From positions 62,001 to 126,000 of the IMG/VR virus record IMGVR_UViG_3300046542_000248: a DNA stretch of 64,000 nt; one strand, written 5' to 3'. The first letter of the stretch is position 1. Every line of letters starts with the position of its first letter. Positions 3 through 60,312 of this stretch are shown here, in pieces. Under the pieces are notes generated by a model that saw only the letters and a list, made by a program, of their open reading frames with translations, was not told where the DNA came from and did no database searches. Position numbers and translations under genes: made by a program. The DNA comes from a virus.

Positions 3-1646
3 TGGACCTCAATAAATAGCCCTCTTGGTAATAACTGGTCTGCTGTTTGTTATGGTAACGGTGTATTTGTAGCAGTTTCAAATGGTGGTGTAGGTACTAG
101 AGCCATGTCTTCTTTTGACGGGGTTACATGGACTCAACGAACAAGTGCTGCTGATAATAACTGGGCTGCTGTTTGTTACGGTAATGGATTATTTGTAGCT
201 GTTGCAGTTACTGGTACAGGTAACCGTGTTATGACTTCACCTGATGGTGCTACTTGGACAGCAAGAACTACACCTGCTGATAATAACTGGAGTTCAGTTT
301 GTTACGGTGCTGGTATATTTGTAGCTGTAGCAACTACAGGTACGGGTAATAGAGTTATGTCTTCTCCTGATGGAATTACTTGGACACTAAGAACAAGTGT
401 TGCTGATAATAGTTGGTATGATGTTTGTTATGGTAACGGTATATTTGTAGCTGTAGCATATAACGGCACCACAGCTAATCAAATTATGACTTCTCCTGAT
501 GGTATTACGTGGACAGCAAGAACTAGCCCATCAGCCAATGGATGGTATCTAACATGTTTTGGTAATGGTGTATTTGTATCTATTGGGGATACAGGCACTA
601 GTAAAATTATGATTTCTGTAGATGGAGTTAACTGGACCTTAAGAACTGGAACAATTACTGGTAGTTCTTGGATGGGCTTCGTCTATGGCAATGGTATATA
701 TTTAGTAGTCTCAGATAGTAATGGTAAATCAATGGTATCAAATGATGGTATAAAATGGTCGGCACCATATTTTACTGTAGATAATAACTGGAGTTCAGTA
801 TGCTACGGTAATGGATTATTTGTAGCTGTTGGTACATCAGGAACTGGAAATCGCGTTATGACGTCACCTGATGGTCTTACTTGGACTACTAGAACAAGCG
901 CTGCTGATAATAGCTGGACTGCTGTTTGTTATGGTAATGGATTATTTGTAGCGGTGGCGCTTAGTGGTACTGCATCGACTAGAGTTATGACCTCGCCTGA
1001 TGGTATTACTTGGACAACTAGATCAGCCACTACTACCAATTTTTGGAGATCTGTTTGTTATGGTAATGGATTATTTGTAGCCATCGCATCTACCGGTTCA
1101 CCTTCTCAAATTATGACTTCTCCTGATGGTATTACTTGGACCGCAAGAACTACTCCTCTTGATAACAGTTGGCAGTCAGTTTGTTATGGTGCTGGATTAT
1201 TTGTGGCTGTAGGACCCCTCACTGCATCAGTGGATGGAGTTATGACTTCTCCTGATGGAATTACTTGGACTGTTAGGTTAGGAGCTTCTCTTAATTACTG
1301 GTGTTCAGTTTGTTATGGTAATGGTTTATATGTAGCAGTTTCAAACGCTACTGGTACAGGTAATCGTGTAATGACTTCTTCTGATGGTCTTACTTGGACA
1401 TCAAGAACAACTCCTGCTGATAATGGATGGAATTCAGTATGCTACGGTAATGGATTATTTGTAGCTACTGCAATGTCAGGCACTGGTAATAGAGTAATGA
1501 CATCACCTGATGGTATCACTTGGACTTTACGAGCAACCAATGTTGATAATCAATGGGGTTCGGTATGTTATGGTATTGGCACATTTGTATCTGTATCAGT
1601 CGATGGTACAGGTAACAGAGCCATGACTTCATCTCTACAATATTAA
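3..1646 (+). CDS. Repeat-built tail fibre / receptor-binding protein, C-terminal part (5' end outside window)
   Basis: The reading frame is open from the first complete codon at position 3, so the gene begins before the window; the first in-window ATG (105) is internal. The protein is a tandem array of about twelve units of roughly 43 residues. Each unit carries a WxxVCYGNGxFVAV strand pair and an MTSPDGxTWT turn. Regular Trp/Gly repeats of this kind are typical of beta-propeller or beta-solenoid fibres. In a phage next to other structural genes this suggests a tail fibre or adsorption protein; that role is inference. It ends in Gln-Tyr, as does the next gene, and a 14-bp-stem terminator follows. 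The neighbouring gene at 1761 is a paralogue built from the same unit. Confidence 0.75.
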   Translation, partial: WTSINSPLGNNWSAVCYGNGVFVAVSNGGVGTRAMSSFDGVTWTQRTSAADNNWAAVCYGNGLFVAVAVTGTGNRVMTSPDGATWTARTTPADNNWSSVCYGAGIFVAVATTGTGNRVMSSPDGITWTLRTSVADNSWYDVCYGNGIFVAVAYNGTTANQIMTSPDGITWTARTSPSANGWYLTCFGNGVFVSIGDTGTSKIMISVDGVNWTLRTGTITGSSWMGFVYGNGIYLVVSDSNGKSMVSNDGIKWSAPYFTVDNNWSSVCYGNGLFVAVGTSGTGNRVMTSPDGLTWTTRTSAADNSWTAVCYGNGLFVAVALSGTASTRVMTSPDGITWTTRSATTTNFWRSVCYGNGLFVAIASTGSPSQIMTSPDGITWTARTTPLDNSWQSVCYGAGLFVAVGPLTASVDGVMTSPDGITWTVRLGASLNYWCSVCYGNGLYVAVSNATGTGNRVMTSSDGLTWTSRTTPADNGWNSVCYGNGLFVATAMSGTGNRVMTSPDGITWTLRATNVDNQWGSVCYGIGTFVSVSVDGTGNRAMTSSLQY

Positions 1647-1684
1647 AGATAGGAATTGTTAATATTTTCATGGCTAAACAATAA

Positions 1685-1719
1685 AAATAAGGAATGTGTT
1701 CTTTACACATTCCTTATTT
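1685..1719 (+). terminator. Intrinsic terminator after first fibre gene
   Basis: A 14-bp perfect stem (AAATAAGGAATGTG at 1685-1698 with its complement at 1706-1719) closes a 7-base loop, 40 bases after the stop codon. The outer AT pairs provide a short U-rich tail. Confidence 0.75.
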
Positions 1720-1760
1720 AATAAATTTATTAATTAAATTTATAATAGATGGGAGAGAAT

Positions 1761-4700
1761 ATGAACATGATAGAATCATATGTACATGGATTAGGAAGTA
1801 AAAGTAGTACTAGTAGTGATCCAGGTGTTAAATGGACTCCAAGAGTAACTCCTGCCGATAATGATTGGAGAGGCATCTGTTATGGTGCTGGTTTGTTTGT
1901 AGCTGTAGGGGCTTCAGGTACGGGTAATAGAGTAATGACTTCCCCTGATGGTATTAACTGGACTGCAAGAACAACTCCTATTGATAATAACTGGTTTGCG
2001 ATATGTTACGGTAACGGAATATTTGTAGCTGTAGCATCTACCGGTACTGGTAATAGAGTAATGACTTCTCCTGATGGTATTAACTGGACATTAAGAACAA
2101 GTGCTGTTGATAACACTTGGGTTTCAGTTTGCTATGGTAATGGGTTATTTGTAGCAGTTGGAATTAGTGGTAGTTTAGATGGAATTATGACTTCTCCTGA
2201 TGGTATTGCATGGACAGTACGAACTACTCCCGCTAATAATAACTGGTATGGTGTTTGTTATGGCAATGGAATATTTGTAGCTGTGGCAAATACAGGCACA
2301 GGTAATAGGGTTATGACATCTCCTGATGGTATTACTTGGTCAGCAAGGACTAGTGCTGCTGATAATGATTGGTATACTGTTTGCTATGGTAATGGATTAT
2401 TTGTAGCGACATCATGGACTGGTACAGGTAATAGAGTTATGACTTCTCCTGACGGTATCACTTGGACATTAAGAACAAGTGCTGCTGATAATGATTGGAG
2501 ATCAGTTGTTTATGGTAATGGAATATTTGTGGCAGTTGCCCAAACCAGTACAGGAAATCGGGTAATGACATCTAAAGATGGTATTACCTGGGCATTAAAA
2601 ATAAGTGCAGTTGATAATAACTGGAAATCAGTTTGTTATGGTAATGGATTATTTGTAGCAGTTTCAAATACTGGCACGGGTAATAGAGTAATGACTTCAG
2701 GGCTAATAAATGACAGTTCACTCAGTTCTGAATTTGATATGCGTGAAGTTATACCTGGGATTAATTGGACGATTAGAGATAGTATTTTTGACTATGCTTT
2801 AGGTGCTGTATGTTATGGTAATGGGCTATTTGTAGCTACCTCACAGTATGGTGGGGGTGCTAGAATATTAACATCATACGATGGAGTTACTTGGACATCA
2901 AGAACTAGTGCCATTGATAGATCTTGGCTTGGTATTTGTTATGGTAACGGATTATTTATAGCGGTAACCAACAGTAATCTTTCAGCTCATTTAATGACTT
3001 CTCCTGATGGTATTAACTGGACATCACGAACTATTACTGATAATCTTTGGTTTGGTATTTGTTATGGTGCTGGTTTATTCGTGGCTGTCGGGCAATCTAG
3101 TACAGGAAATCGTGTAATGACTTCTCCTGACGGTATTACTTGGACTTTAAGAACGAGTACTGCCGATATTGTGTGGCAGGGATTATGTTATGCTAATGGT
3201 TTATTCGTGGCTGTTGGAACAGGTAGCGGAGGGAATGGAATTATGACATCCCCTGATGGTGTTACCTGGACAGCAAGAACATGTCCTTCTGATAATAGCT
3301 GGGCATCAGTTTGCTATGGTAATGGTTTATTTGTTGCAGTTTCAGATGCTGCCGTAGGTGTTGGTGCAGGTAATAGAGTAATGACATCGCCTGATGGTAT
3401 TACTTGGACTTTAAGAACTGCCGGTGCTGATAACAGCTGGAAATCAGTTGTTTATGGAAATGGAGTATTTGTGGCTGTTTCTAATAATGGTACAGGTAAT
3501 AGAGCAATGACATCTTTAGATGGTATTACATGGACTGCAAGATTAACCACTGATAATAACTGGAGAAGCGTTTGTTATGGTGGTGGGCTATTTGTAGCTG
3601 TTGCAGGTACAGCCACAGGAAATACACACATTATGACATCAGGAACAATTGATACTTCTACACCGGCTGCTAATTTACCGGAGCGTGTATCACGACCAGG
3701 TATTAACTGGTCCTCCCGTTCACCATCTATTGATAGAGTTTGGAATTCAGTGTGTTATGGCAATGGTTTATTTGTAGCTGTTGCAAGCGGTTCAACTGGT
3801 GTTATGACTTCACCAGATGGTATTAACTGGACAGGAAGAACGTCTGCTGCTTCTGCCAATTGGAATTCAGTATGTTATGGTAATGGTTTATTTGTAGCAG
3901 TTGCATATTCAGCAGGAAGTAGTAATGTAATGACTTCCCCTGATGGTATCAATTGGACTGCAAGATCGACTCCAGGTACCAGCTGGTATGCTGTTTGTTA
4001 TGGTGCTGGTTTGTTTGTAGCTGTTACTGATGATAGTGCAATGTATTCTTATGATGGGTTTGGTTGGTCTTTAGGTTCGGGTACCGGTAATAAAACATGG
4101 AGAGCTGTTTGTTATGGTAATGGTGTATTTGTAGGTGTAGGAATTGTAGGCTCAACAGTTGGTGTAATGTCATCAGCTAATGGTATTACTTGGTCTGTAA
4201 GAACAACCCCCAATAGTGCTCAGTGGACTTCAGTTTGTTATGGTAATGGTTTATTTGTAGCAGTTGCAAATAGTTCAAGTCTTGTAATAACATCACCCAA
4301 TGGTACGACTTGGACGTCAAGAACAGCTGCTTCTTCCGCCACTTGGCAGTCTGTTTGTTATGGTAATGGATTATTTGTAGCAGTTGCACAAAATGGCACA
4401 TATAGAGTAATGACTTCGCCAGATGGTATTACTTGGACTTCAAGAACAGCGGCAAATGCTAATACATGGTGGTCAGTATGTTATGGTGCTGGTTTATTTG
4501 TAGCAGTTTCATGGGATGGTTCAGGAAACCGTTCAATGATGTCTCCAGATAGTATTAACTGGTCGACACCGTACTACGCCGTTGATAATCAATGGATGGG
4601 TATTTGTTATGGTAATGGTATATTTGTAGCTGTTGCTGCAACTGGTTCAATAACTAATATGGTTATAACTTCTCCCGATGGTATTAACTGGACTACAAGA

Positions 4701-5435
4701 TCAGCATCTACTGCTTATAGTTGGACTTCAGTTTGCTATGGTGGATTATTTGTAGCTGTTTCTGGAAATGGTACCGGTAATAGAGTAATGACTTCACCTG
4801 ATGGTATTACTTGGACTTCAAGAACAACGCCTGCTGATCTTGTTTGGAATGCTGTATGTTATGGTAATGGAAGATATGTTGCAGTATCAGCCGATGTTTC
4901 GGGTAATAAAGCAATGACATCTTCAGATGGTATTACTTGGACATTAAGAACAATTTCTGCCGATAATAGATGGTATGGAATATGTTATGGTAATGGATTA
5001 TTTGTAGCAGTTTCATATACTGGTACAGGTAATAGAGTAATGACTTCACCTGATGGCATTACTTGGACTTCAAGAACAAGTGCTAGTGACAGTGCATGGT
5101 TTTCAGTTTGTTACGGTAATGGATTATTTGTAGCTGTTGCTGGTGATGGTCCCGTTATGACATCTCCAGATGGTATTACATGGACATCTAGAACACCCGC
5201 AGCGGTTAATTCATGGTATTCAGTTTGCTATGCTAATGGATTTTTTGTAGCTGTTGCTGCAAGTGGTACAGGTAATCGGGTTATGACATCTCCAAATGGT
5301 TTAAATTGGACTAGTAGAAGCACTACTAATGATTATAGTTGGAAAAGTGTATGTTATGGTAATAATTCATTCGTGGCTGTAGCGTGGACTGATGGTGCTG
5401 GAAACCGCACAATGGCATCTATCACACAATATTAA
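1761..5435 (+). CDS. Giant tandem-repeat tail fibre / receptor-binding protein
   Basis: About 1224 residues, almost entirely repeats of the 43-residue unit seen in the upstream gene (WxxVCYGNGxFVAV, then GTGNRVMTSPDGITWT). There are about 28 copies, interrupted by two short non-repeat linkers near residues 325-345 and 640-660, which may separate propeller-like blocks. The first ATG at 1749 lies across the Shine-Dalgarno sequence GGGAG (1751-1755), so 1761, five bases downstream, is the better start. No signal peptide or enzyme motif is visible. A virion fibre that binds a surface glycan is the most likely role, but the ligand is unknown. A terminator follows at 5449. No late-type promoter is visible between the two fibre genes. 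Confidence 0.75.
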   Translation: MNMIESYVHGLGSKSSTSSDPGVKWTPRVTPADNDWRGICYGAGLFVAVGASGTGNRVMTSPDGINWTARTTPIDNNWFAICYGNGIFVAVASTGTGNRVMTSPDGINWTLRTSAVDNTWVSVCYGNGLFVAVGISGSLDGIMTSPDGIAWTVRTTPANNNWYGVCYGNGIFVAVANTGTGNRVMTSPDGITWSARTSAADNDWYTVCYGNGLFVATSWTGTGNRVMTSPDGITWTLRTSAADNDWRSVVYGNGIFVAVAQTSTGNRVMTSKDGITWALKISAVDNNWKSVCYGNGLFVAVSNTGTGNRVMTSGLINDSSLSSEFDMREVIPGINWTIRDSIFDYALGAVCYGNGLFVATSQYGGGARILTSYDGVTWTSRTSAIDRSWLGICYGNGLFIAVTNSNLSAHLMTSPDGINWTSRTITDNLWFGICYGAGLFVAVGQSSTGNRVMTSPDGITWTLRTSTADIVWQGLCYANGLFVAVGTGSGGNGIMTSPDGVTWTARTCPSDNSWASVCYGNGLFVAVSDAAVGVGAGNRVMTSPDGITWTLRTAGADNSWKSVVYGNGVFVAVSNNGTGNRAMTSLDGITWTARLTTDNNWRSVCYGGGLFVAVAGTATGNTHIMTSGTIDTSTPAANLPERVSRPGINWSSRSPSIDRVWNSVCYGNGLFVAVASGSTGVMTSPDGINWTGRTSAASANWNSVCYGNGLFVAVAYSAGSSNVMTSPDGINWTARSTPGTSWYAVCYGAGLFVAVTDDSAMYSYDGFGWSLGSGTGNKTWRAVCYGNGVFVGVGIVGSTVGVMSSANGITWSVRTTPNSAQWTSVCYGNGLFVAVANSSSLVITSPNGTTWTSRTAASSATWQSVCYGNGLFVAVAQNGTYRVMTSPDGITWTSRTAANANTWWSVCYGAGLFVAVSWDGSGNRSMMSPDSINWSTPYYAVDNQWMGICYGNGIFVAVAATGSITNMVITSPDGINWTTRSASTAYSWTSVCYGGLFVAVSGNGTGNRVMTSPDGITWTSRTTPADLVWNAVCYGNGRYVAVSADVSGNKAMTSSDGITWTLRTISADNRWYGICYGNGLFVAVSYTGTGNRVMTSPDGITWTSRTSASDSAWFSVCYGNGLFVAVAGDGPVMTSPDGITWTSRTPAAVNSWYSVCYANGFFVAVAASGTGNRVMTSPNGLNWTSRSTTNDYSWKSVCYGNNSFVAVAWTDGAGNRTMASITQY

Positions 5436-5612: not shown

Positions 5613-6614
5613 GTGAAACCAAATTCGTCTTTAAAAAAATTTAGTTACAAGTTTAATAGGTTCGTGATATCTGCATCGCTATCGGCTTGTTTAATTATTT
5701 CGTATCAAATTACTGTGTATCTAGCGAACGTGGATCTCAAACAGCAAGAAAAAAAAGAAACGGAAATTAGATTAGATATTACATGGAAGATCGTTGAAAA
5801 CCTTATTAATGAATCAATACTGACTTCTGAGGATAAGCTCAAGAATGATACTATTCCAGATATTCTAGCTGATTTTAACAAAGAATATTCATCTGACAAT
5901 GTCAGATTGGAATCAGACCTCAAGAAAATGTCAGATTTAACATATGAAAACCCTGTAGCAAAAATCATGGCTAATAATATCCGTGATAAATATTTTAATG
6001 GAATTAAAACTGATAGTAACGATATGTTTGTACTGATGAAAGATATTGGGGTAGTCTCCGATTTATCTATTTCAGCAAGTGCTGACAAGCCTAGAACTAT
6101 CGAATATGAAATCTCTCGACATTATAACAAAGATCTTGCACAGCAAGCTTACAACGTAATGATTCAACAAAACTACCAGAAACAATACATATTCTGGCAA
6201 TGGTTTGAACCAGAAAGTACTAGTATCAAAAAGATCTCTTCTATGAAACTAGAAGAATTAAAACAAGTCTTTAAAGATTCCAATGGAGATATTAATTCTC
6301 TACAATCATTTGAATTCTTAGTTCCTGAATATATATTCGTTGATAAGGATATTCTTGGCAATCCACTAGTTAATGACCGTGGTCAGCGTCAAAATATTTA
6401 TCAATTCATCGTAGTACAGGGCTTTAATATAACAGAAATTGTTAAGCATAATGCATTCATCTATAATATATTTGATAATACTATGGTTAAAGCATCGGCT
6501 CAACAATTTGAAACAATTAGAATGGTTTATCAATTTATGATTTTCTTGGGGCTTATCATGCTTATCTACGTTGCTATAACGACGGTAAGACTTCGAGAAA
6601 AGTACGATATATGA
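5613..6614 (+). CDS. Two-pass membrane protein with a large central domain
   Basis: 333 residues, not recognised. It starts at GTG (5613) with GAAAGGG about ten bases upstream. A hydrophobic segment spans about residues 16-38 and a second about 300-322, followed by a short basic tail. The 260-residue region between them is polar, rich in Lys, Asp and Glu, and predicted helical, so it is probably exposed on one side of the membrane. This topology is shared by sensor-like and envelope-modifying proteins, but no catalytic or ligand motif is visible. A late-type promoter precedes it and the next gene is a holin-like membrane protein, so a part in lysis or envelope interaction is possible but unproven. 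Confidence 0.6.
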   Translation: MKPNSSLKKFSYKFNRFVISASLSACLIISYQITVYLANVDLKQQEKKETEIRLDITWKIVENLINESILTSEDKLKNDTIPDILADFNKEYSSDNVRLESDLKKMSDLTYENPVAKIMANNIRDKYFNGIKTDSNDMFVLMKDIGVVSDLSISASADKPRTIEYEISRHYNKDLAQQAYNVMIQQNYQKQYIFWQWFEPESTSIKKISSMKLEELKQVFKDSNGDINSLQSFEFLVPEYIFVDKDILGNPLVNDRGQRQNIYQFIVVQGFNITEIVKHNAFIYNIFDNTMVKASAQQFETIRMVYQFMIFLGLIMLIYVAITTVRLREKYDI

Positions 6615-7849: not shown

Positions 7850-7884
7850 TACGGTAAAAGAAGATAGGGAAAATCCCTATCTTC
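7850..7884 (-). terminator. Terminator after ppk
   Basis: An 11-bp perfect stem GAAGATAGGGA/TCCCTATCTTC with an AAA loop lies 18 bases beyond the ppk stop codon. It is followed on the minus strand by TTTTACC. Confidence 0.8.
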
Positions 7885-7901
7885 TCTTCTTCATGAAACT
7901 C

Positions 7902-10049
7902 TTAATCACGTTCTTTAAGATACTCTAAAGTACCTAGTTGCGAATCAACCAAAGTCTGATTTTCTTTACGCTCAACCCTCGTGTAATTACCTTGCCAGTC
8001 CATTTCAAACGCATTAACATTATCACTCAATGCTCTCATTAAGTAATCATTAATTTCTTCCTTGGTATTATCACTAACTTCAAACATTAGCTCAAGGCGT
8101 CTGTCAAGATTTCTTGTCATCATATCAGACGAAGTGATAAAGATTGACTCTTGACTTGGGTCATTATTGCAACCAAATTTCAGAATACGACTGTGTTCAA
8201 GGAATCTTCCTACGATTGATTTCACCGTAATATTTTCAGAATATCCTACAACACCTGGGATCAATGAGCATGCTCCACGGCAGATGATCTCAATTACTAC
8301 ACCTGCATTAGATGCCTCGTATAGTTTATTGACTAGTCCATGATCACTAAGGTTATTTACTTTTATTGCAATATAACCATTATCTCCATTGACAATTTGA
8401 TTATCAATCTTTTGATACAGGAATTGTCTTGTCATTACTGGAGAGATCTTGATGTGATTCAGTTGAATACTTTCAGAAATGAATCCACCTGTAAGCATAT
8501 TGAAGATTGTACTCACATCTTGGCAGATCTTTCTATTGGAAGTGAAGTAACTAAAATCTGTATAGATCTTAGCATTCTTTTCAGAATAGTTTCCAGTTCC
8601 AATGTGTACAAATTGCTGCGGATCACCATCTTTCAATCTAAACACATGCATCATTTTTGCATGCGTCTTAATATGTTCATAACCATATACCACAATGGCA
8701 CCAGCTCGTTTAAGTTTCTCAGCCCATTCAATATTTGTCTCTTCATCAAACCGAGCTTTAATCTCCATTACAACTACTACGTTCTTTCCGTTCTGTGCAG
8801 CGTGTAATAGATATTCAAGAATCTTAGATTCATTACCCGAACGATACAACGTCTGTTTGATAGAGATTACATGTGGATCAAAACATGCTTCCGCCACGAA
8901 TCTTAATACAGTATCGTTAAAGCTTTCATACGGATGATGAACTAGAATGTCTTGCTTACTAATAGCGTTAAGCATAGACTTATTGGATTTGTAAGTCTTA
9001 AACGGTTTAATAGGACTAAAGTCTGGATACTTTAATTCTGGAGCTTTAGTCTCAGAATAGATTTGCATCATATCTGACATTTTCAAACGAGACATTGAAT
9101 GAAACATAAACTTCTTTGAAATATCCAAAGAGTCTTTAAGCATGTTCAGTATTTTCTTTCTTGGATTGCCCCAGATATCTACACGAATTGTTTCATTGTA
9201 TAGAATCCGACTTCTCACATGAGATATCATAGATTCTACATAGTTTGATTCGTGGAATGCGATATTGTTATCAATGCTTGAATCACCATCCCGTAGTATA
9301 CGGAACGCAGTAATATCGTAATAAACGATACCTGGATATAGGTTTTTCAGGTTGTCAATGATAATATCTTCAATGAAATGCCATTGCTTAGTAGCAATAT
9401 CATCAGTCTTATCATTGAATAGAACCATTCGATCCAGATGTGGCGGAATTTCAATTAAACCAATTTTCTCATTATCATCACCAGTATTAAGAATCAGTGC
9501 GATATAGATTGCAAATGGTTTAAGGTGTGGAAGTGGTCTTGTAGTGTCAATAATTAACGGAGTTAACGAAGGGAAGATATTCTTAAAGAAGTACTTCTCT
9601 TTCTTTGCTTCCATTACTGGATCTCTTTCGAGATTCATATTTAAATCACCAGTATCAAGATCTAATACTGGTCCGTGGATATTGATATAATTCATCATTA
9701 ATTTCAGCTTTATGATATCATAAAGTCTGTCGATCTCATTTAACATTGTCTTGCCTGTTTTTAAGATCTCGCTAAGGCTAATATCACCACCATGCTGATC
9801 CGGATTGAAAGCTTCAGTTTCTACAAATGATGCTTCTTGACCTTTAAGTCTTGCAGCAACTCGAATTGTAAAGAACTCATCAAGATTAGAATTTGCAATA
9901 GCTAGAAACTTAACTCTTTCTAATAGCGGAGTATTGTCATCAGAAACTAACTCCATTACTCTCTCATTAAACTTAATCCAAGATAGTTCACGATCCATAT
10001 AAATCAGTTGATCAGTGTTTTCTTTCATCGTAATCATCAAGTCAGTCAT
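7902..10049 (-). CDS. ppk: Polyphosphate kinase 1 (PPK1)
   Basis: 715 residues, the normal length of bacterial PPK1. The family makes inorganic polyphosphate from ATP, reversibly, through a phosphohistidine. The N-terminal block YMDRELSWIKFNERVMEL is the classic PPK1 opening, followed by ANSNLDEFFTIRVA. The catalytic histidine lies in THAKMMHV (about residue 460). The block HIGTGNYSEKNAKIYTDF follows at about 487, and the second conserved histidine is in FLEHSRI (about 615). All four are intact, so the enzyme should be active. The start at 10049 has AGGAGG seven bases upstream, an early-type promoter lies at 10087, and a terminator follows. No exopolyphosphatase is nearby. A phage-borne ppk is unusual; possible roles are phosphate or nucleotide-energy storage, or stress signalling. 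Confidence 0.95.
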   Translation of the reverse strand: MTDLMITMKENTDQLIYMDRELSWIKFNERVMELVSDDNTPLLERVKFLAIANSNLDEFFTIRVAARLKGQEASFVETEAFNPDQHGGDISLSEILKTGKTMLNEIDRLYDIIKLKLMMNYINIHGPVLDLDTGDLNMNLERDPVMEAKKEKYFFKNIFPSLTPLIIDTTRPLPHLKPFAIYIALILNTGDDNEKIGLIEIPPHLDRMVLFNDKTDDIATKQWHFIEDIIIDNLKNLYPGIVYYDITAFRILRDGDSSIDNNIAFHESNYVESMISHVRSRILYNETIRVDIWGNPRKKILNMLKDSLDISKKFMFHSMSRLKMSDMMQIYSETKAPELKYPDFSPIKPFKTYKSNKSMLNAISKQDILVHHPYESFNDTVLRFVAEACFDPHVISIKQTLYRSGNESKILEYLLHAAQNGKNVVVVMEIKARFDEETNIEWAEKLKRAGAIVVYGYEHIKTHAKMMHVFRLKDGDPQQFVHIGTGNYSEKNAKIYTDFSYFTSNRKICQDVSTIFNMLTGGFISESIQLNHIKISPVMTRQFLYQKIDNQIVNGDNGYIAIKVNNLSDHGLVNKLYEASNAGVVIEIICRGACSLIPGVVGYSENITVKSIVGRFLEHSRILKFGCNNDPSQESIFITSSDMMTRNLDRRLELMFEVSDNTKEEINDYLMRALSDNVNAFEMDWQGNYTRVERKENQTLVDSQLGTLEYLKERD

Positions 10050-10086
10050 TGTATTGCCTCCTAAGAGTAGTTTGTATAGTCATTAT

Positions 10087-10097
10087 AATAATATATA
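10087..10097 (-). promoter_or_regulatory. Early-type promoter of ppk
   Basis: TATATATTATT on the minus strand, 38 bases before the ppk start codon. Unlike three neighbours it lacks the TTACATGTAA palindrome. Confidence 0.6.
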
Positions 10098-10124
10098 TTT
10101 GTAACCAAATTGATTATCCTATCA

Positions 10125-10155
10125 TGAAAAAATAAAAGATGAGTTTTACCTCATC
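10125..10155 (-). terminator. Weak terminator overlapping the stop of the 237-aa gene
   Basis: A 6-bp stem GATGAG/CTCATC (10138-10155), followed on the minus strand by a T-rich run opposite AAAAAATAAAA. The stem covers the stop codon. Confidence 0.5.
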
Positions 10156-10864
10156 CATTAAATACAGCACTGCGATCGTTGAATATTGCTGAATAGTTCC
10201 AATCATCACGCATTCTCTTAATGATAAGACAGGCGAATATCATCGGATCAGTAGGTAATGAAAGACCAAATATTCCCATCGGCATATTAACTTTATAATC
10301 AATTTCTTTTATCACAGCTTCAATATCTGCTTCAGGTAATTGTAAGATTTTACCTATACATTTTTTAATTACGTTATCTCTACATTGATTAATAATCTCA
10401 TTAATTCTAGCTTGATCGTCAGCTACATTTGTTACCATGTTTAAACACGCCCCTAAAGTATGATTAGTGATAGACACAGCATTAGCAATAATATCTGCTA
10501 CCCAATATATAGATTGGATGTGATATTCTGGTCTATTAACATTAACTCTATTTACAAAATCATTATAATCTTTGACGGATCTATCAACACCCTTACTCTT
10601 AGTATCAACTAAAAACATTGGCTGTTCAGATACATCGGGAGTAACTACAACAATTTTTTCAACTTCAGCATTATAGCGTATCTCAGAAGGAAAGAATGTA
10701 TCACTTGATTTAAACGCTAGAACTTTTCCAGAGTTGGTTACTGCAAGTATATCTAATTCATGTACCAAATCTCTACCTGGTCTGAAATTGTGGGTATAGA
10801 ATTTACAATCGCCAGTTTTGATTCTTTCAACAATTTCTTCAAAATTGTTAACAGTATCTGTCAT
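10151..10864 (-). CDS. Hypothetical early protein, 237 aa
   Basis: Not recognised with confidence. The N-terminal 60 residues contain HELDILAVTNSGKVLAFKSS, which loosely resembles the Asp-strand-Lys layout of PD-(D/E)XK nucleases (D, then xxK), but the second acidic residue is replaced by Phe, so catalysis is doubtful. The C-terminal half looks helical. The early-type promoter at 10915-10925 with the TTACATGTAA palindrome precedes it. It belongs to the block of minus-strand early genes around ppk. Confidence 0.55.
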   Translation of the reverse strand: MTDTVNNFEEIVERIKTGDCKFYTHNFRPGRDLVHELDILAVTNSGKVLAFKSSDTFFPSEIRYNAEVEKIVVVTPDVSEQPMFLVDTKSKGVDRSVKDYNDFVNRVNVNRPEYHIQSIYWVADIIANAVSITNHTLGACLNMVTNVADDQARINEIINQCRDNVIKKCIGKILQLPEADIEAVIKEIDYKVNMPMGIFGLSLPTDPMIFACLIIKRMRDDWNYSAIFNDRSAVFNG

Positions 10865-18651: not shown

Positions 18652-19956
18652 ATGGCGGACGAAATAAATTATGAAGTCTATAATGACGGCGATGACGGTG
18701 CAAATAGACCTAATAGCGAGATTGATCAAACTGCTAAGATATATAAGCTAACTACATCTTTCTCACATCTCTTAGGAAATGTTACTAGTATTATTGAGCA
18801 GTATATTGAAGATATGATGCCCAAAGATTATTTCAAACAAAAACGCGTAACTACTGAAGCAGCATTTAAAGATATTAAAGATTGGAAGAAGAATCTTATT
18901 GCTGCTGAGAAACCATATCTTATTATTGATCCTAAGATTGTAATGGATCAAGAATCAGTTTCTTTACCATGGGCTACTTGGGACAGATTTATTCCACATG
19001 ATCATAACGCTGCACCTATGCTGTATATGATGAATCATGAATTCTTCTATAAAGATGAAGAACATGGATTTGCGTTAGGGTATACTATTGCAAGATATCG
19101 GTTCCAATTCAATATTACAGTCGTTGTAGATACTCAAATGCAGCGATTGAATCTTGAAAACTATCTTAAATCAAACTTCAGATTCCGTCATATGTATCCT
19201 ATTATGAGGTATACTGAAACAATGATTCCTAAACCATATATAGACTATATTGCTGATAAGTTTAGTATGGATGTAAATTCTGAAGATTTCTTAACCGAGT
19301 TAAACAAACGTTGCCCATTTACTATTTTAAGACTTCATAGACCAGGAACTGGGACCACTGAATTCTTTATTCTACAAATGAGCGATATCCAAATCAAACT
19401 TCCTGAATATGCACAGGGTCAACGTAATATGCAAAATCGTGTAGAAATGAATTCTACAGTTACGTTCCCTATGGAAATTGAAACAAACTTGATGAATAAC
19501 TTCTTGCTTATTTCTAAGGATCAAGTTGACACTACTGAATTAATGTCTAACTACATGACACGTATCAATATTTCTTCCAAAGCTCCAACTGTTCCTAGCT
19601 TTATGGATAACTTATCTCTCTACTTAAAAATTGCAGTTCAGCCAGATAACATTCATGAAGTTGTCGATGTTAATCAATTCTTAAGTTATGATACTATACC
19701 ATTGATTAAGTATATCAATGACAATCATTTACTTAATGATTACGTTGCAATTAGAGTATACAAATGGACTGAGCTTATTGATCATGAAAATCCAGATGTT
19801 ATGGAGTTCGATAAGGAAACGTATCAGTTAGATCTAAAAGGTCTTGATTCTGAAGTGGTATATAATATAGCTATCTATTTCGATATGAACTTCTTAGCTA
19901 AGGTTAAAAAGTTTATAACTGGTACAACTAGCGTTGGGACTGACTTCGAGAAATAG
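18652..19956 (+). CDS. Probable virion structural protein, 434 aa
   Basis: Not matched to a named family. It has an acidic N-terminus, then mixed alpha/beta content with many aromatic residues and no enzyme motif. ATG at 18652 has AAGGTGG seven to eight bases upstream. A full late-type promoter precedes it and a terminator follows. Divergent arrangement with the Ig-like virion gene supports a tail or neck role. Residues about 140-330 are the most ordered-looking part. Confidence 0.55.
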   Translation: MADEINYEVYNDGDDGANRPNSEIDQTAKIYKLTTSFSHLLGNVTSIIEQYIEDMMPKDYFKQKRVTTEAAFKDIKDWKKNLIAAEKPYLIIDPKIVMDQESVSLPWATWDRFIPHDHNAAPMLYMMNHEFFYKDEEHGFALGYTIARYRFQFNITVVVDTQMQRLNLENYLKSNFRFRHMYPIMRYTETMIPKPYIDYIADKFSMDVNSEDFLTELNKRCPFTILRLHRPGTGTTEFFILQMSDIQIKLPEYAQGQRNMQNRVEMNSTVTFPMEIETNLMNNFLLISKDQVDTTELMSNYMTRINISSKAPTVPSFMDNLSLYLKIAVQPDNIHEVVDVNQFLSYDTIPLIKYINDNHLLNDYVAIRVYKWTELIDHENPDVMEFDKETYQLDLKGLDSEVVYNIAIYFDMNFLAKVKKFITGTTSVGTDFEK

Positions 19957-24767: not shown

Positions 24768-24808
24768 GAGAGAGGGTGTAAAATCCCTCTCTCACTTCTT
24801 TTTTTTTT
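24768..24808. terminator. Terminator between convergent genes
   Basis: Stem GAGAGAGGG/CCCTCTCTC (24768-24776 and 24785-24793), then ACTTCTTTTTTTTTTATG on the plus strand. Confidence 0.8.
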
Positions 24809-27800
24809 ATGCTTTTTCACCATAAACTTCTTCATAGAGATTTCTAACGTTATCTTTCATCCCGATAAGAATCGAATTTATAAGTCCAGTTTTAACTGCA
24901 CTAAACGTCATCCGAGCACCAAGACTGATTACTCCCAAATAAGCATCAAGCTTATCATTAGGATTAGATAATAGATATGGTTCTTGACCTTCGTCCCAAG
25001 TATCGCAAGCAATTGCTTTACAAGCAATAAATGCTGCAAGCTTATCTCCGATGGAGAATGTGTCTTTATACTTGATATAGATTTCGATTAAGATACCACC
25101 TTGAGTAACTTTAACACCTTTGACTTTACCACTAAGACCCGGATTGATATAATAAATCTCGGTAAGTGGTACGTCTACATCATTAGGGTTTACATGAGCA
25201 GAAATTTCTTTCATTCTATTCTTATTTTCATTCTCATGATGAGTAATGATATCTTGAATAGATTTATTATATTCTTCTTTAGGAGCAGTATAGTAGATTT
25301 TAATATCTTCCACCACGCCATTGTACTTAGATACAATGGTATTTCTTGCGGCTTCTTCAATATCAAAACCTTCCTCTTCTTCAGCAGTGTTTAAGAATTT
25401 ATTAACAAGGTCATCGTCATGTGATGTATCAAAGATCATGAGAGCCTCATTAACCTCAACCTTATCACCTTTCTTAACCATTTTAGAAATATTAGCATTA
25501 GCTCCAAGTACGATATCTTTCTTAATAACGATATGGGAACTGAGCTTATTAGAGAGTTTAGTAGAAATCATTGTAGAATCCTCAAATGTTTTAGAGGAGT
25601 ATTTTAAGCCAACTCGCGCCATAGGACCATGCATGAATACTGAATCTCCAGACCATTTATCTAGAGCAAAGAATTCAGGGTTATGAGCAATGATTCTACC
25701 AGCTTTAAATACTTCACCCTCTTTTACAAGAGAATCAAGTTTATTGGATACGAAGAATCCAGCACCAGAGTTCTTACCGATTTCTGGTTGAAGACTGATT
25801 ACATCTTTGGTTCCATCACTATATCCTAATACAAGTAGATTATTTTTCTTATCATTCTTCAGAACTTTACCATCTTTCTTAGCTTTGAATACGAATGTAT
25901 CTCCGATAAGATGAGGTAGAGCTTTTTCAAAGCCTGTATATACTAGATTCCGATCAGAACCTACACAAGCAAGAGTATGCCGAGATTGAGCTGATGCCAT
26001 TGCAACACGTTCTGGTTCATCTGAAGTAACCGAGAATGGAAGTGCCGCTTCCGCACCAGATACTAAGTTAGGAGTAGAAAGCTTATTAAGATCTTCTTTC
26101 TTATCAGTTACATCAATATAACCACGGGATGATACAATCTTGGCATCTACTGTAAGAGTACGAGCAATACCAATTGCACCCGAGATTGGAGATGCTTGAG
26201 AAATAACACCAGCCATAGATGGATGGAATGAACGTTTCGACAAGTTAAAGGATCTGTCTTCATTCATACCTGCTGGACCTTTAAAGGTTGTACTTCTCAT
26301 TAAGTCGATAGTATAAAGAGGGTTAAGATCACTATAATCTTTAGTAACTTGGTTTGTAAGAATCTCGATTAGAACAGCATCTTTCTTAGCCGAGAATTTC
26401 TTAACCATAGATTTATCAGCAGATAGACGATAATCTTCATAAGCTTTAGATACTACTTTATACAAGAATGCACTAACCATTTCGTTAGAACGAACACGGT
26501 GCATCCTCATATCACCCTCATCGGTGTAGGAGTTATCTTCAAGCAAAGAGTTTGCATAAAGGAATACATCTACGAAGTTAGTAGGTAAATTGAAATCACG
26601 AAGGATTTCTTCGGTAATAGGATCAATGAACAACTGCTCAAAGTTTTCGAATGCATAACCGATATTACTACGACCAAATAAAGTGTCGAAGATTTCATGG
26701 TATACATCTTTAGCTAAGAATTGTTGGATATCATACATCTTAGTAGGAACTTCCATAAATCCATTCATAAGCAACGTATTGCTTAATGGATATACGTCAT
26801 ATACAAGCCAAGCATCAGAGAACTCAAGTACTTCCTCTGTACCTTTCTTATATTTAGGTGTATATGGAGAATCTTGCTTAGAGATAATTCTGTAATTGAT
26901 TTTAGCACGTTTCATAAGATTCAATAGACCTTCAAGATAAGATAGAAGAAGTACAACTGGCACTTTCCTATTCATAATGAGAGATCTAGAATACATATAC
27001 TTTCTACCTTTAGGGACGGTTTTAAATAGATCTTTAAATGATTCTTCATATACAGAGATTTCCTGAGCAAGATAGTCAATAAGATCTTTGTCAAATGCTG
27101 ATGCTTGCACGATTTTATTAGCAGCAGTATCGAAGTAAATAACTTCTTTATTATTCTTGATAGCAAGAGGAATAATAGAAGAAGTTCTTTCAGGAGGAGC
27201 AATTTTCAATTCTTCCATTTTCTTTCTGATATCAGCTTGAGAGAAATAGATAACTACAGTAGGAAGAGTGATCTTTCTATATTTAGAAGCAAGTTCATCA
27301 TACTCGATAGTGGTCATATAGGATTTATTACCCTTAGCAGAACCAAGTTCGAATTTGACTTTATTATTAGACAGTACAGCGGATTTCTTATAGAACTCAA
27401 TTACTTTAGGGGAAATATTCTGTCCGAATCTAGTGATAAAGGACTTTTTATAGTTAGTAGCAATTTGTACAGTATCAGGACCAGTTTTAGTAATTGGAAG
27501 AGGAATGATTTGGTTAATCATGATCTTCTTATTACCACCGATCTTCATGAACCGCCCATTTGTAAATTTAGGAAGATTAATAGTAAAGTTATGGCGTTTA
27601 CCCTTCTCATCCTCAAAGACGAATGTAAACTCTTCAACTTTATTTAATGGATCACTAGCATCCTTAACTCTAGTTTCGATTAGGTATAATGGTTTATCTT
27701 TATATTGAAGATTCGTCATCATAGTAACGATATCTTTTCTATAATGATTATTCAAATATGCCTCATCAAAGTTAGGGAATGTCATTTTCTTCAATGCTGG

Positions 27801-28961
27801 ATTAATTACATCAATAGGTAGCTCAACAGGTTCAATCTTATTAGAAGCAGCTCTTGCTTGAATATCCTCGATGGTCTTATCATCAATCTTAAGACCCTTC
27901 ATATCTTCGATTAATTTCAGTTCTCTAGCAAGTCTTGGCTTGGACTTAGGCATAGTCGTCTTTAATTCGGTATTAGCCTTTTCAAGTTCAAGCTCCAAGA
28001 AAGTCACAGGAGAATCGGAGATAGTAGGATTTTTGTCTTGCATATGAATACCCATTTTATCTGCAGACTTTTCGATAAGAGTATTCATTCCCTCTTCATC
28101 AAGTTCACCATCAGAGATATGAGTATTGATTTTATCATGAAGTGCTGTACGATTTTTAGCTTCTTGTAATTCATTGGATTCATCTTCACTAGCCACAGAT
28201 TCAACATCTTTTCTAGTGTGATGAAGTTTAGTCCAAAGAGTTTTAAATTCCTTATGAGTATCTACATCAAAGTTTTCAGGGAGTAATAAGAAAACTTGAT
28301 TCTCATAAGTAAAGTAGAATTTCCATCCACTGAAGTTAGATACAAAATAGGTAGGATCATCTTTAAGCTTATTGAAGAATAGAGAAATAAAGTTCCCAGT
28401 TTCTCTCACATTAAAGATAGATAGATCCTTGATATCTCTAACCCAGTTATCAATAGGAATCATAATACACTTATTGTGATAAGCAGCTTGGTCAATTTTA
28501 GAAGTAATAGAATCTTTAAACAATCTAAAGTATTCATTAACTCTAACCATACCCATATGAACATCTTTAAGACCAAAGAATTCAGTATTCAAATAGCTGA
28601 CATCATGGATATAGTTTCTACCCTTCATATTTGCAGAGTTGAGAACTAAACTAATGTCAGGAAAAATAGGTTGAAGCTTTTCATCGAACGTTTTTCGCAG
28701 ATCAGTATCTTGAATACGATATCTGATTACAGTATTGTAGATTTTGTAGTTAAATAGTTTCTCGTGGAAGTAGAATCTAAGATGTCTAATCTCCCACATT
28801 TGATCTTTAAAGAATTTCAGAGTAGCCTCATCATTCTTTACGATCGGAATAAATACAGAGCCTTTATCTTGCTCTTTTACCATTAAAGGCAATCTAAACT
28901 TGGAATCACTTCTATAAAGTAGGTTTGGTTTCACAAACTTCATATCTATCAAAATTATCAT
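24807..28961 (-). CDS. Phage RNA polymerase beta subunit, unsplit
   Basis: 1384 residues. Regions of bacterial RpoB appear in order: RFMKIGGNKKIMINQI (about 468), matching the FIINGxERVIVSQ block; MRMHRVRSNEMV (about 815), matching NRRVRSVGELL; FKGPAGMNEDRSF and HPSMAGVISQASP (about 892-932), the rifampicin-region fork; RVAMASAQSRHTL (about 985), matching RxLMGSNMQRQAV; and GDKLAAFIACK (about 1303), where the two active-site lysines keep their eight-residue spacing. The first 400 residues are phage-specific. The protein is one piece, whereas phiKZ/AR9-type beta is usually split in two. Residues at the E. coli H526 and S531 positions are changed (Leu, Thr by eye), so rifampicin insensitivity is expected. 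A full late promoter precedes it. The ATG at 28961 is close to AAAGGA; a TTG at 28952 is an alternative start. Confidence 0.9.
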   Translation of the reverse strand: MIILIDMKFVKPNLLYRSDSKFRLPLMVKEQDKGSVFIPIVKNDEATLKFFKDQMWEIRHLRFYFHEKLFNYKIYNTVIRYRIQDTDLRKTFDEKLQPIFPDISLVLNSANMKGRNYIHDVSYLNTEFFGLKDVHMGMVRVNEYFRLFKDSITSKIDQAAYHNKCIMIPIDNWVRDIKDLSIFNVRETGNFISLFFNKLKDDPTYFVSNFSGWKFYFTYENQVFLLLPENFDVDTHKEFKTLWTKLHHTRKDVESVASEDESNELQEAKNRTALHDKINTHISDGELDEEGMNTLIEKSADKMGIHMQDKNPTISDSPVTFLELELEKANTELKTTMPKSKPRLARELKLIEDMKGLKIDDKTIEDIQARAASNKIEPVELPIDVINPALKKMTFPNFDEAYLNNHYRKDIVTMMTNLQYKDKPLYLIETRVKDASDPLNKVEEFTFVFEDEKGKRHNFTINLPKFTNGRFMKIGGNKKIMINQIIPLPITKTGPDTVQIATNYKKSFITRFGQNISPKVIEFYKKSAVLSNNKVKFELGSAKGNKSYMTTIEYDELASKYRKITLPTVVIYFSQADIRKKMEELKIAPPERTSSIIPLAIKNNKEVIYFDTAANKIVQASAFDKDLIDYLAQEISVYEESFKDLFKTVPKGRKYMYSRSLIMNRKVPVVLLLSYLEGLLNLMKRAKINYRIISKQDSPYTPKYKKGTEEVLEFSDAWLVYDVYPLSNTLLMNGFMEVPTKMYDIQQFLAKDVYHEIFDTLFGRSNIGYAFENFEQLFIDPITEEILRDFNLPTNFVDVFLYANSLLEDNSYTDEGDMRMHRVRSNEMVSAFLYKVVSKAYEDYRLSADKSMVKKFSAKKDAVLIEILTNQVTKDYSDLNPLYTIDLMRSTTFKGPAGMNEDRSFNLSKRSFHPSMAGVISQASPISGAIGIARTLTVDAKIVSSRGYIDVTDKKEDLNKLSTPNLVSGAEAALPFSVTSDEPERVAMASAQSRHTLACVGSDRNLVYTGFEKALPHLIGDTFVFKAKKDGKVLKNDKKNNLLVLGYSDGTKDVISLQPEIGKNSGAGFFVSNKLDSLVKEGEVFKAGRIIAHNPEFFALDKWSGDSVFMHGPMARVGLKYSSKTFEDSTMISTKLSNKLSSHIVIKKDIVLGANANISKMVKKGDKVEVNEALMIFDTSHDDDLVNKFLNTAEEEEGFDIEEAARNTIVSKYNGVVEDIKIYYTAPKEEYNKSIQDIITHHENENKNRMKEISAHVNPNDVDVPLTEIYYINPGLSGKVKGVKVTQGGILIEIYIKYKDTFSIGDKLAAFIACKAIACDTWDEGQEPYLLSNPNDKLDAYLGVISLGARMTFSAVKTGLINSILIGMKDNVRNLYEEVYGEKA

Positions 28962-49769: not shown

Positions 49770-50969
49770 TTAACCGAATAAATCATCCACACTAATATCA
49801 TACATATAAACCTTCTTAACATGGAAGGCTTTAAGACGTTTCTGCATGAGTGTAGCACCGATCTTAGTTGATGCAAGACCGATCATCTGAATATTCATCT
49901 TATATGGATGAGTACCAAGACATTTGCTACATACTTTAGGTGGTTCATATTTACAATACATTGGACTATATTGCTTGATACGTTTACCAATGTACTTGTC
50001 AATATTTTCAGGAAGTAACGTAATCATTTTACCATTATCATCAATGATATTGCTATATAAGAACTCATTCCTAAAGTAAGGATCAAGTAGGATATCAAGA
50101 TAATCTTTAGTCCCACAATCTGTACCTTCTTTAGCAGCTTCAACGTCTTGAAGTGTTGCAATAAATTTCTTTACTGCATAACCGCCTTGTGCAACTCCTA
50201 ATGCCCGTGAGTATACGCCAGATACAGCACTACCAGCAAATGTTGGATACTCTTCTTTTGAGATACCATCATTATAGTTTGATTTAAGAACTTTCCATGT
50301 ATCTGTAAGGGTATCTAGAATAGGACCCTTCATCAGTAACATAGTTTTCATAGAGTTATCATAATCTAACTTAGCACCACTGGCAAAGTTATCCCACTCC
50401 GAATATTGAGAGAAATGCTTCTTACCAAAGGCAACAAGTTCCTCTTCAATCTTAGCACCGATACTTACATCACCAGCAGCAATTTCTTTCTCATACTTCT
50501 TGAATAATTCTTCACGAAGCTTCTTAAATTCAGGAGGAAGAACGAGTAGTCTAGTAGTGAGTGATGGGTTCAATAACTCTGCTAAGTCTCCACCTCCAAG
50601 CCACTCCAGCATATCAATTAGGAAGAAATATTTGTCCTGATCAATCTTATCATCAAACCGAGCTTGAGAAACATAAGTGTATAATTTACTCAAGTTACTA
50701 TTAGTGATAGGTACATTAATATAACCAGTCACATCGGAAAAATGCTTATCAGTTACAAGCTTATTGAATAGATATAAACCGATATTGGTAAAGCCAGCGA
50801 TATTTTTAGAGCAGGAATTTTCAGGAAGATGGAAATAATCTGTAACCTGAAATCTAACATTTGGATTCTTTAAAGTCCTAGCAAAGAAAGACTTCATCTT
50901 CTTCATAGTAATATCTTCGAATTTTAACGAGAGAAGTTCTTCGACTTCATCCTTGTTTAAAAGTCTCAA
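49770..50969 (-). CDS. Phage RNA polymerase beta-prime fragment (bridge helix, zinc site, trigger-loop N-half)
   Basis: About 399 residues from TTG 50969 (AGAGGTG six bases upstream; GTG at 50978 lies on that site). The segment GISKEEYPTFAGSAVSGVYSR, then ALGVAQGGYAVKKFIATLQD (about 239-280) matches the bridge helix region of RpoC (EYFISTHGARKGLADTAL, SGYLTRRLVDVAQD). It is followed by TDCGT and YSPMYCKYEPPKVCSKCLG, which supply the four cysteines of the second zinc site. The end, TLMQKRLKAFHVKKV, matches the first trigger-loop helix (TQLTMRTFHIGG) with its histidine kept, and the protein stops 15 residues later. So the polypeptide ends inside the trigger loop. The NADFDGD part and the C-terminal part must come from other genes. 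Late-like site AACC-N6-AA at 50999. Confidence 0.85.
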   Translation of the reverse strand: MRLLNKDEVEELLSLKFEDITMKKMKSFFARTLKNPNVRFQVTDYFHLPENSCSKNIAGFTNIGLYLFNKLVTDKHFSDVTGYINVPITNSNLSKLYTYVSQARFDDKIDQDKYFFLIDMLEWLGGGDLAELLNPSLTTRLLVLPPEFKKLREELFKKYEKEIAAGDVSIGAKIEEELVAFGKKHFSQYSEWDNFASGAKLDYDNSMKTMLLMKGPILDTLTDTWKVLKSNYNDGISKEEYPTFAGSAVSGVYSRALGVAQGGYAVKKFIATLQDVEAAKEGTDCGTKDYLDILLDPYFRNEFLYSNIIDDNGKMITLLPENIDKYIGKRIKQYSPMYCKYEPPKVCSKCLGTHPYKMNIQMIGLASTKIGATLMQKRLKAFHVKKVYMYDISVDDLFG

Positions 50970-50998
50970 TTTTTTCACCTCTTACTTAGTATTATGAT

Positions 50999-58365: not shown

Positions 58366-60312
58366 TTGTTTGCGGCTATGGTAGAAGATACATTACCTCA
58401 TGAATACCCTGAAAATACTGCCGTTTCAATGGGAACAGTGGGCAACGTAAAACCCAATGTGGGTTTAAGATATAAAAAGATTCCGATGAAATTAGACATC
58501 GAAACGTTAGATTTATTACTAGCATATGCTTATGATGTAGACAATCAATATATAACCAGGTCTGCACTTAACAACTTACTAACATGGGTGAGTCTGTGTA
58601 ATGTAAACCTGTATAAAAACAATCAATCCTTGCGTTCAAGGGTTGATTTATTGGCATTGCTACTTGAAGCACGATTACACATGGGTTTCGATAATAGAAA
58701 GATCATGATGAATTATGCTTTAGACAAGTGTGATAACAAGAACCTGATTAGAGAAGAAATCATTCCCGAGTTCAATAAGATTAAGTTGAATACTCGAATG
58801 ACGCAATACTTAAACTCCTATGTGGTAGATAGGCTTATTCATGCTTTCATATTCTCATATAAGGATGAACTCTTCCAAGTCTTTGAAGACTTAGAGTCTC
58901 ATAACTATACCACATTAAGAGATATCACCCAGAAGTTTAAAGAGATTATCACTAATCTCCTCTTCGACATAAGAAATGCTGAGAACTTTGCTGAAGATAC
59001 AATGACCCTTGATTTAAGTGAGGGAAGCTTCGATAGCATTGTTAAGCAAATCGTTAAGAAATTAAAAGATCCGAGCAATAAACTTATCGCTGGGATTCAA
59101 GCATTAAACATCATGCTTAATGGAGGATTTGAACAAGCTCGTTCATACCTATTCTTTGGTATGACAGGTGCTGGTAAATCCGTACTACTAATTAACTTGA
59201 TGATCTTCCTTAAGAAATGTAATAGGTTTAAAACTAAAGATCCTTCGAAACGTCCTGCTGTACTATACATATCTCAAGAGAATACAGTTGCAGAGACAGT
59301 TGAACGGATATTTAATATGGAGGTTACGGGTAATAATATTCGTGACTATACTCCAGCAGAAGTTGTTAAGCTCCTTAGAACTAAAGGGGAACTTACACTT
59401 AATACTGAAGATGATATTGATATTATCATTAAGTACTATGATGATAAAACAATCTCGACGATTGATATTTATTCGATCATTAGTGATATCGAAGATACTG
59501 GTCGTGAAGTTATTGCATTGCTACATGACTATATTGAACGTATTAAATCTTCCAAAAATCATGCAGAGCTTCGCTTTGAACTTGCTGAAGTTGCAAATGA
59601 TTATTCAGTATTGGCTAAACGTCTTAGCATTCCAGTTATTGGAGCAGGGCAATTTAACCGTAAAGCTGCTGATACAATTGAAACAGGCGCTGATGGTAAC
59701 AAGTATGATATCGGTAAATTGTTAGGGAAATCATTCATCTCAGAAGCATTCGCCATTCTCAAGAACATTGACTCTGCTATTGCGATCAATAGAGAGACTG
59801 ATGATGAAGGTAATGATTATATGACCTTCAAAGATATGAAACAACGGTCTAGTAGAGGTAAAAAGCATAAATTTTCTGATTACTTTGCACATCCATTTGA
59901 TCCTCAAAACGGTATTAAACTCGTACAAGATATTCATGAAGAAGAACCTGTATCTAGAACTTCACTTGATGAAGTTAGAGAAGGTAATGAAATTGTGGGT
60001 AGGAATAAACCGAAGAAGCGTGAGATCAAAGAGCTTCCAATCCAGAAAAAGAAATTCGATCAAAATAATGAAGTTATCACTAATGACCAAATCAAAGACT
60101 TTAAGTTCCTCGGAGATATTATCAATGAAAGAAAAGCTATCAAAGAGAAGCTTGATAAGAGAGTCGAGAAGGTTAATGAGGAAGAAAAACTTGATGCTAT
60201 CTTCCGCACATACAATAGTGATGATAAGTATGTAAGAAATGAACGAGGTCTTATCTCTGTCACAATCAATACAGAATTTTTCAGTAAGAAAACGGAATGG
60301 CAGGAGTTCTAA
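58366..60312 (+). CDS. DnaB/gp41-like replicative helicase
   Basis: 648 residues from a TTG at 58366 with GGAG 11 bases upstream. The first 230 residues are helical and phage-specific. The RecA-like core begins with SNKLIAGIQALNIMLNGGF, then Walker A FGMTGAGKSVLL (about 264-275), a VLYISQEN strand, a Walker-B-like strand near YSIISDIED and VIGAGQFNRKA, and IAINRETDDEGNDYMTFKDMKQR. This order matches DnaB-family hexameric helicases that unwind DNA at the fork. The C-terminal 120 residues are charged and probably flexible. The terminator overlaps its stop codon. Confidence 0.75.
   Translation: MFAAMVEDTLPHEYPENTAVSMGTVGNVKPNVGLRYKKIPMKLDIETLDLLLAYAYDVDNQYITRSALNNLLTWVSLCNVNLYKNNQSLRSRVDLLALLLEARLHMGFDNRKIMMNYALDKCDNKNLIREEIIPEFNKIKLNTRMTQYLNSYVVDRLIHAFIFSYKDELFQVFEDLESHNYTTLRDITQKFKEIITNLLFDIRNAENFAEDTMTLDLSEGSFDSIVKQIVKKLKDPSNKLIAGIQALNIMLNGGFEQARSYLFFGMTGAGKSVLLINLMIFLKKCNRFKTKDPSKRPAVLYISQENTVAETVERIFNMEVTGNNIRDYTPAEVVKLLRTKGELTLNTEDDIDIIIKYYDDKTISTIDIYSIISDIEDTGREVIALLHDYIERIKSSKNHAELRFELAEVANDYSVLAKRLSIPVIGAGQFNRKAADTIETGADGNKYDIGKLLGKSFISEAFAILKNIDSAIAINRETDDEGNDYMTFKDMKQRSSRGKKHKFSDYFAHPFDPQNGIKLVQDIHEEEPVSRTSLDEVREGNEIVGRNKPKKREIKELPIQKKKFDQNNEVITNDQIKDFKFLGDIINERKAIKEKLDKRVEKVNEEEKLDAIFRTYNSDDKYVRNERGLISVTINTEFFSKKTEWQEF

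Follow-up and report, generated by a model that had tools for sequence, protein, structure and literature searches.

The lineage of jumbo phages to which this virus belongs probably acquired polyphosphate kinase 1 (PPK1) once, long ago, and inherited it alongside its core genes, and the enzyme, made early in infection, would build polyphosphate from host ATP. We give this joint reading, which is drawn from sequence, a probability of about 0.55. The gene was found in a stretch of 64,000 nucleotides (hereafter the window), which covers positions 62001-126000 of a 246,901-bp IMG/VR virus record. The features of the window that bear on the argument are collected in Table 1.

Table 1. Features of the window, with positions counted from its first nucleotide.
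Feature	Position	Strand	Remarks
Membrane-protein-like gene (fam7)	5613..6614	+	In related phages, usually adjoins ppk downstream, on the opposite strand
12-bp hairpin (AGAAGATAGGGA/TCCCTATCTTCT)	7859..7885	.	Directly past the ppk stop
PPK1 (polyphosphate kinase 1), 715 aa	7902..10049	-	Identified by domains, equivalog, fold and catalytic residues
AR9-type early (virion RNA polymerase) promoter, AAATATATATTAT-N6-G	10081..10100	-	Exact match to the AR9 consensus
Intrinsic-terminator-like hairpin and T run	10137..10156	-	Separates the upstream gene from the ppk promoter
Upstream gene, 237 aa, no known domain	10151..10864	-	Own early promoter at 10928-10909
PHROG_21946 family gene (fam2)	18652..19956	+	Adjoins ppk in most PPK1-bearing relatives
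Phage multisubunit RNA polymerase beta-type subunit	24807..28961	-	Served to place the phage
Second phage RNA polymerase subunit piece (phrog_2962)	49770..50978	-	
Divergent DnaB-like helicase	58366..60312	+	Phage replication hallmark

The minus-strand ORF, 715 codons long, spans positions 7902-10049 exactly and has an AGGAGG site 5' of its ATG; the initial annotation named no strand, and a reading of the plus strand was ruled out by its many stops. The initial annotation had described a full-length PPK1 with both histidines, and the profile searches bear this out. The four Pfam domains (PP_kinase_N, the middle domain, C_1, and C_2) are all far over their cut-offs, stand in the correct order, and cover the whole length of the protein, which reaches 661.9 bits against the TIGR03705 "polyphosphate kinase 1" equivalog (cut-off 465.85 bits). 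The phmmer match to the Escherichia coli PPK (1XDO) extends over residues 15-713 (E = 1.2e-99), with about 30% identity. The E. coli residues N45, R375, R405, and H435 correspond to N55, R403, R433, and H463 of the window protein, and Y468, R564, H592, and E623 correspond to Y496, R591, H619, and E653; all are kept. His463 is thus the counterpart of the autophosphorylated histidine (H435), and His619 that of the second one (H592). The active-site residues are invariant among 25 related viral PPK1s, with the single exception of one R405K. The AlphaFold2 model, built on an alignment of the window and fetched-locus sequences, has a mean pLDDT of 86 and a pTM of 0.86, and its predicted fold matches those of 1XDO (TM 0.84) and of the ATP-bound PPK1 9UUH (TM 0.81 by query length, 0.91 by target length). 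The window protein therefore has in common with bacterial PPK1 (E. coli 1XDO/1XDP, TIGR03705, and Porphyromonas gingivalis 2O8R) the four-domain architecture, the complete fold, the two catalytic histidines, and the ATP/polyphosphate residues. It differs in its separate viral clade, its phage early promoter, and the lack of an adjoining Ppx-GppA-type ppx gene. PHROGs assigns no family to it, though PPK1 is present in many phages, and BFVD holds no full-length viral PPK1, just a 204-aa fragment.

By its domains, modelled fold, and active site, the gene product is predicted to be a catalytically competent PPK1 and, as an enzyme, an ordinary one with all the sequence and fold features of the family. 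An inactive enzyme would have spoken against the initial annotation, by its own account, and no inactivation is visible in the sequence. One could still imagine a folded, catalytically dead scaffold or decoy, given that some deep relatives are very divergent (e.g., G066 and L105, which sit on long branches). The retention of every active-site residue in the window protein and the low dN/dS in the measurable pairs make this very improbable. These ratios, 0.05-0.17 for viral ppk in unsaturated pairs, reveal purifying selection; between the window and the PPK1-bearing locus L002 synonymous sites are saturated, and dN/dS is not informative.

The initial annotation attributed the gene to a phage, and the record supports this with phage-type RNA polymerase subunits and replication genes, including a divergent DnaB and a Dda-like helicase. 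Its genome of more than 200 kb, its phage multisubunit RNA polymerases, and its AR9-type early promoter are features of the AR9/PBS1-like group, and from its sequence we classify the virus as a 247-kb phiKZ-related jumbo phage of that group. By RNA polymerase, its nearest cultured relatives are Listeria phage LPJP1, Staphylococcus phages SA1/S6, Yersinia phage phiR1-37, and Bacillus phage PBS1, at about 31-33% identity. AR9/PBS1, phiR1-37, SA1/S6, and LPJP1 have the AR9 early promoter type in common with the window phage, and fam2, the usual neighbour of ppk, is present in all five genomes searched for it (PBS1, phiR1-37, SA1, S6, and LPJP1). They differ in that no PPK1 was found: when 50,697 phage records were searched by tblastn with the window PPK1, none was returned from this cultured group, including the sequenced isolates PBS1, SA1, S6, LPJP1, and phiR1-37. 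The beta-type RNA polymerase gene is split by inserts in five genomes (G006, G008, G010, G016, and G017; loci L130-L134), and likewise in PBS1, where the gap holds a homing-type endonuclease. One PPK1-bearing locus encodes an endolysin with Amidase_3 and S-layer-homology domains (L006:15801-16625), possibly hinting at a host whose cell wall is of the SLH type. In the 64-kb window, Rfam and tRNA scans returned nothing.

The early promoter proposed in the initial annotation proved to be a perfect match to the AR9 early consensus. The virion RNA polymerase recognizes this consensus, AAATATATATTAT-(6N)-G (PMC5312081). On the strand of ppk, the window has AAATATATATTAT-TATAAT-G at 10100-10081, which puts the consensus G, the AR9 transcription start, at 10081, 31 nt ahead of the ATG. 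An identical motif is found in L002. The window contains 12 AR9-type sites when up to one mismatch is allowed; dinucleotide shuffles give an expectation of 0.23. By ORF coordinates nearly all of them sit directly 5' of an ORF in the same direction. Among viral ppk genes, the exact core TATATATTAT occurs near the start in 12 out of 25, against 48 of 464 other genes from the same stretches (Fisher p = 6e-6, a value that overstates independence because neighbouring genomes are related). In 11 of these 12 genes the core is 5' of ppk, and the genes that have it span deep lineages; roughly half of the ppk genes of related phages have no exact core near their start. On the minus strand, the hairpin past the ppk stop is followed by TTTT and can be the end of the ppk transcript. 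With its own early promoter and hairpins at both ends, ppk therefore looks, from its sequence context, like a one-gene early transcription unit.

Early promoters usually drive host-takeover genes, and that of ppk is perfect in the window and kept in several deep lineages. This would also suit a regulatory or counter-defence role, in which the polyphosphate made, or the ATP drained, alters host proteases, RNA decay, toxin-antitoxin systems, or defences based on nucleotide signalling. There is a link between PPK and the RNA degradosome, and the NCBIfam name for the bacterial family is "RNA degradosome polyphosphate kinase". No defence-linked neighbours were seen at the locus, however, and we hold such a role to be quite unlikely.

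The initial annotation took PPK1 to be uncommon in phages. Three scans of IMG/VR with PPK1 queries gave about 30 viral contigs, many of 180-264 kb, and all those of at least 180 kb also have the phage RNA polymerase. A search with PPK1 counts just what was sought, and for this reason we made a further count by gathering records with the RNA polymerase alone (n = 67) and looking for PPK1 afterwards. PPK1 is present in 19 of them; among the 35 with a length of 180 kb or more, 17 have it. Rarity can thus no longer be maintained: PPK1 is widespread in related phages, the very outcome that the initial annotation had named as contradicting it. On the RNA polymerase tree, the long genomes that lack PPK1 are concentrated, ten in one clade and others beside the cultured phages, and its presence and absence require five changes.

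In the 50,697 phage records, the only credible cultured carriers of PPK1 are the Vibrio phages vB_VcorM_GR7B and GR11A, in whose genomes (195-208 kb) the gene is annotated. Their PPK1 is 31% identical to that of the window and groups with Pseudomonadota PPK1, and the genomes, unlike that of the window phage, have no match to the phiKZ-type RNA polymerase. For these two reasons we regard the Vibrio phage gene, on its sequence, as an independent acquisition. In the PPK1-bearing Vibrio phages, a DHH-family phosphoesterase gene lies about 3 kb from ppk (L003:8302-9486 and L004:7897-9087); some DHH enzymes are exopolyphosphatases. Other database matches were set aside. The phage label of the "Acinetobacter phage MD-2021a" ppk contigs (CAKLQH020000010, CAKLQF020000014, and CAKLQF020000010) is misleading: two of the three ppk neighbourhoods were inspected, and both have Acinetobacter-type housekeeping genes. 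Many ppk matches in faecal "Bacteriophage sp." records are short or labelled unverified. A 41-kb contig (L011) was left out as a jumbo phage, as its PPK1 groups with Pseudomonadota.

We compared the viral proteins with bacterial PPK1s from 80 GTDB loci and about 600 genomes of two phyla, a sampling that is large, not exhaustive. All the phiKZ-related viral PPK1s fall on one side of a branch that separates them from bacterial PPK1s (100/100 support), and the split recurs in 100% of the bootstrap trees of the careful tree. In one tree, a 33-kb contig (L112) has a very long branch and, with midpoint rooting, an ambiguous place; the other viral rows of that tree that fall outside or are ambiguous are only L011 and the Vibrio phages. 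No nesting of PPK1 inside the sampled bacterial clades, as for an auxiliary metabolic gene recently derived from a host, was found. The phylogeny against bacterial ppk, suggested as a check in the initial annotation, thus returned a separate viral clade, and the inference of a rare cargo was wrong. Across the 19 genomes with both proteins, the pairwise distances of PPK1 and RNA polymerase are strongly correlated (Mantel r = 0.97, p = 0.0001), and the nearest neighbours for the two proteins are the same in most genomes. These trees and distances indicate that PPK1 is vertically inherited in the phage lineage, tracking the RNA polymerase.

The gene order agrees with the trees. In most viral lineages PPK1 adjoins fam2, the RNA polymerase genes, and fam7; in the window fam2 is 8.6 kb from ppk. 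Most PPK1-negative relatives also retain fam2 (PHROG_21946), with no PPK1 at that spot. In L002, a gene related to the 237-aa upstream gene of the window also precedes ppk. The best bacterial identity of the window PPK1 is 39-41% over its full length, against 72-73% for its nearest phage match. Together with the clade and the synteny, this identifies an old phage property and not a recent host gene. A recent capture from a host, or bacterial DNA misassembled into a viral contig, does occur in databases, as the MD-2021a contigs and the short or unverified faecal matches illustrate. For the phiKZ-related gene this explanation is hardly tenable given the same identities and the recurrence of locus, promoter, and clade in independent records; contamination or a chimaera in the window record itself is refuted by synteny, promoter, and phylogeny.

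The surroundings of ppk hold several further features. Two large repeat proteins with DUF6242/EPTP beta-propeller-like matches occupy window positions 105-5435, and in the relative L002 the ppk neighbourhood contains long arrays of "SFSPDGQYIAVGH...FTLLKRNGDNVELAS" and "SHAEG" repeats. At L002:8739-9045, directly ahead of the intact ppk and amid copies of the upstream gene family, there is a truncated second ppk with the middle domain only, which by its sequence is a decayed tandem duplication. Two PPK1s are extended at the N terminus, by about 370 residues (L005:8906-12028) and by about 120 residues (L006:9629-12022), in both cases with a promoter core directly 5' of the extended ORF. In a 52-kb contig, ppk lies in two overlapping frames (L015:10122-12288), which represents a frameshift or an assembly error.

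The catalysis of PPK1 is reversible, and because of this the direction of the reaction is not given by the sequence. The main rival to polyphosphate synthesis is therefore the regeneration of nucleoside triphosphates, in which PPK1 would mainly run in reverse and turn host polyphosphate and ADP or GDP into ATP or GTP that power the transcription and replication of a 250-kb genome. The intact active site would allow it. So would the gene content: Ppx-GppA (PF02541) and PPK2 (PF03976) are absent from all 19 PPK1-bearing records tested, and without them PPK1 would be needed to tap polyphosphate. DHH-type matches in these records are weak and scattered, and PhoH is over its cut-off in one of the 19. 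The same absence can be read the other way: a phage that brings the enzyme for synthesis, and no known partner for degradation, is more likely to be accumulating a pool than spending one. Moreover, in bacteria PPK1 mostly works towards synthesis, phosphorylation from polyphosphate is usually the task of PPK2 enzymes, and the reverse reaction requires a polyphosphate-rich host. We judge the reverse reaction, on balance, unlikely as the main role.

Under polyphosphate synthesis, the injected virion RNA polymerase would transcribe ppk within the first minutes of infection. PPK1 would then autophosphorylate on His463 using host ATP and lengthen polyphosphate chains in the cytoplasm of the host (ATP + polyP(n) = ADP + polyP(n+1)). 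The net effect would be a polyphosphate pool imposed by the phage, without a phage exopolyphosphatase or PPK2. Such a pool may buffer phosphate and energy and may move the host to a polyphosphate-dependent stress state as its transcription is replaced. The purposes put forward in the initial annotation (a store of phosphate or energy, chelation of metals, mimicry of the stringent response) would look alike in sequence data.

In its accessible text, an earlier report lists ppk1 and ppk2 among viral auxiliary metabolic genes in metagenomes (PMC13188868). The ppk1 of that report is likewise virus-encoded and appears in a per-gene list with speculation on phosphorus cycling; unlike here, that text links it neither to a particular phage lineage, locus, or promoter nor to vertical inheritance. 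The open-access literature, which leaves most subscription papers outside, yielded no report that connects polyphosphate kinase with jumbo phages or with the phage nucleus, and no work on a phage making its own polyphosphate. Lineage-wide inheritance of a phage PPK1 appears to be unreported in the open-access literature searched.

Polyphosphate touches the control of energy, phosphate, stress, and RNA decay in bacteria. The RNA polymerases of the PPK1-bearing jumbo phages have diverged to about 30% identity while the PPK1 locus has stayed the same; this persistence, with the early switch-on, therefore suggests a selective value in infection. It is not visible in the laboratory phages of the group because they lack PPK1. 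More broadly, we see even chances that PPK1 was already an early gene in the ancestor of a large family of AR9-like jumbo phages, most of them uncultured, with phage-made polyphosphate as a general takeover device, and that it was lost in some lineages, among them those that led to the Bacillus, Staphylococcus, Listeria, and Yersinia phages isolated and sequenced so far. Deletion or inactivation of this one gene would be a direct test of the role of polyphosphate in phage takeover. The present case also shows that a ppk1 on a viral contig is not necessarily a recent host-derived cargo.
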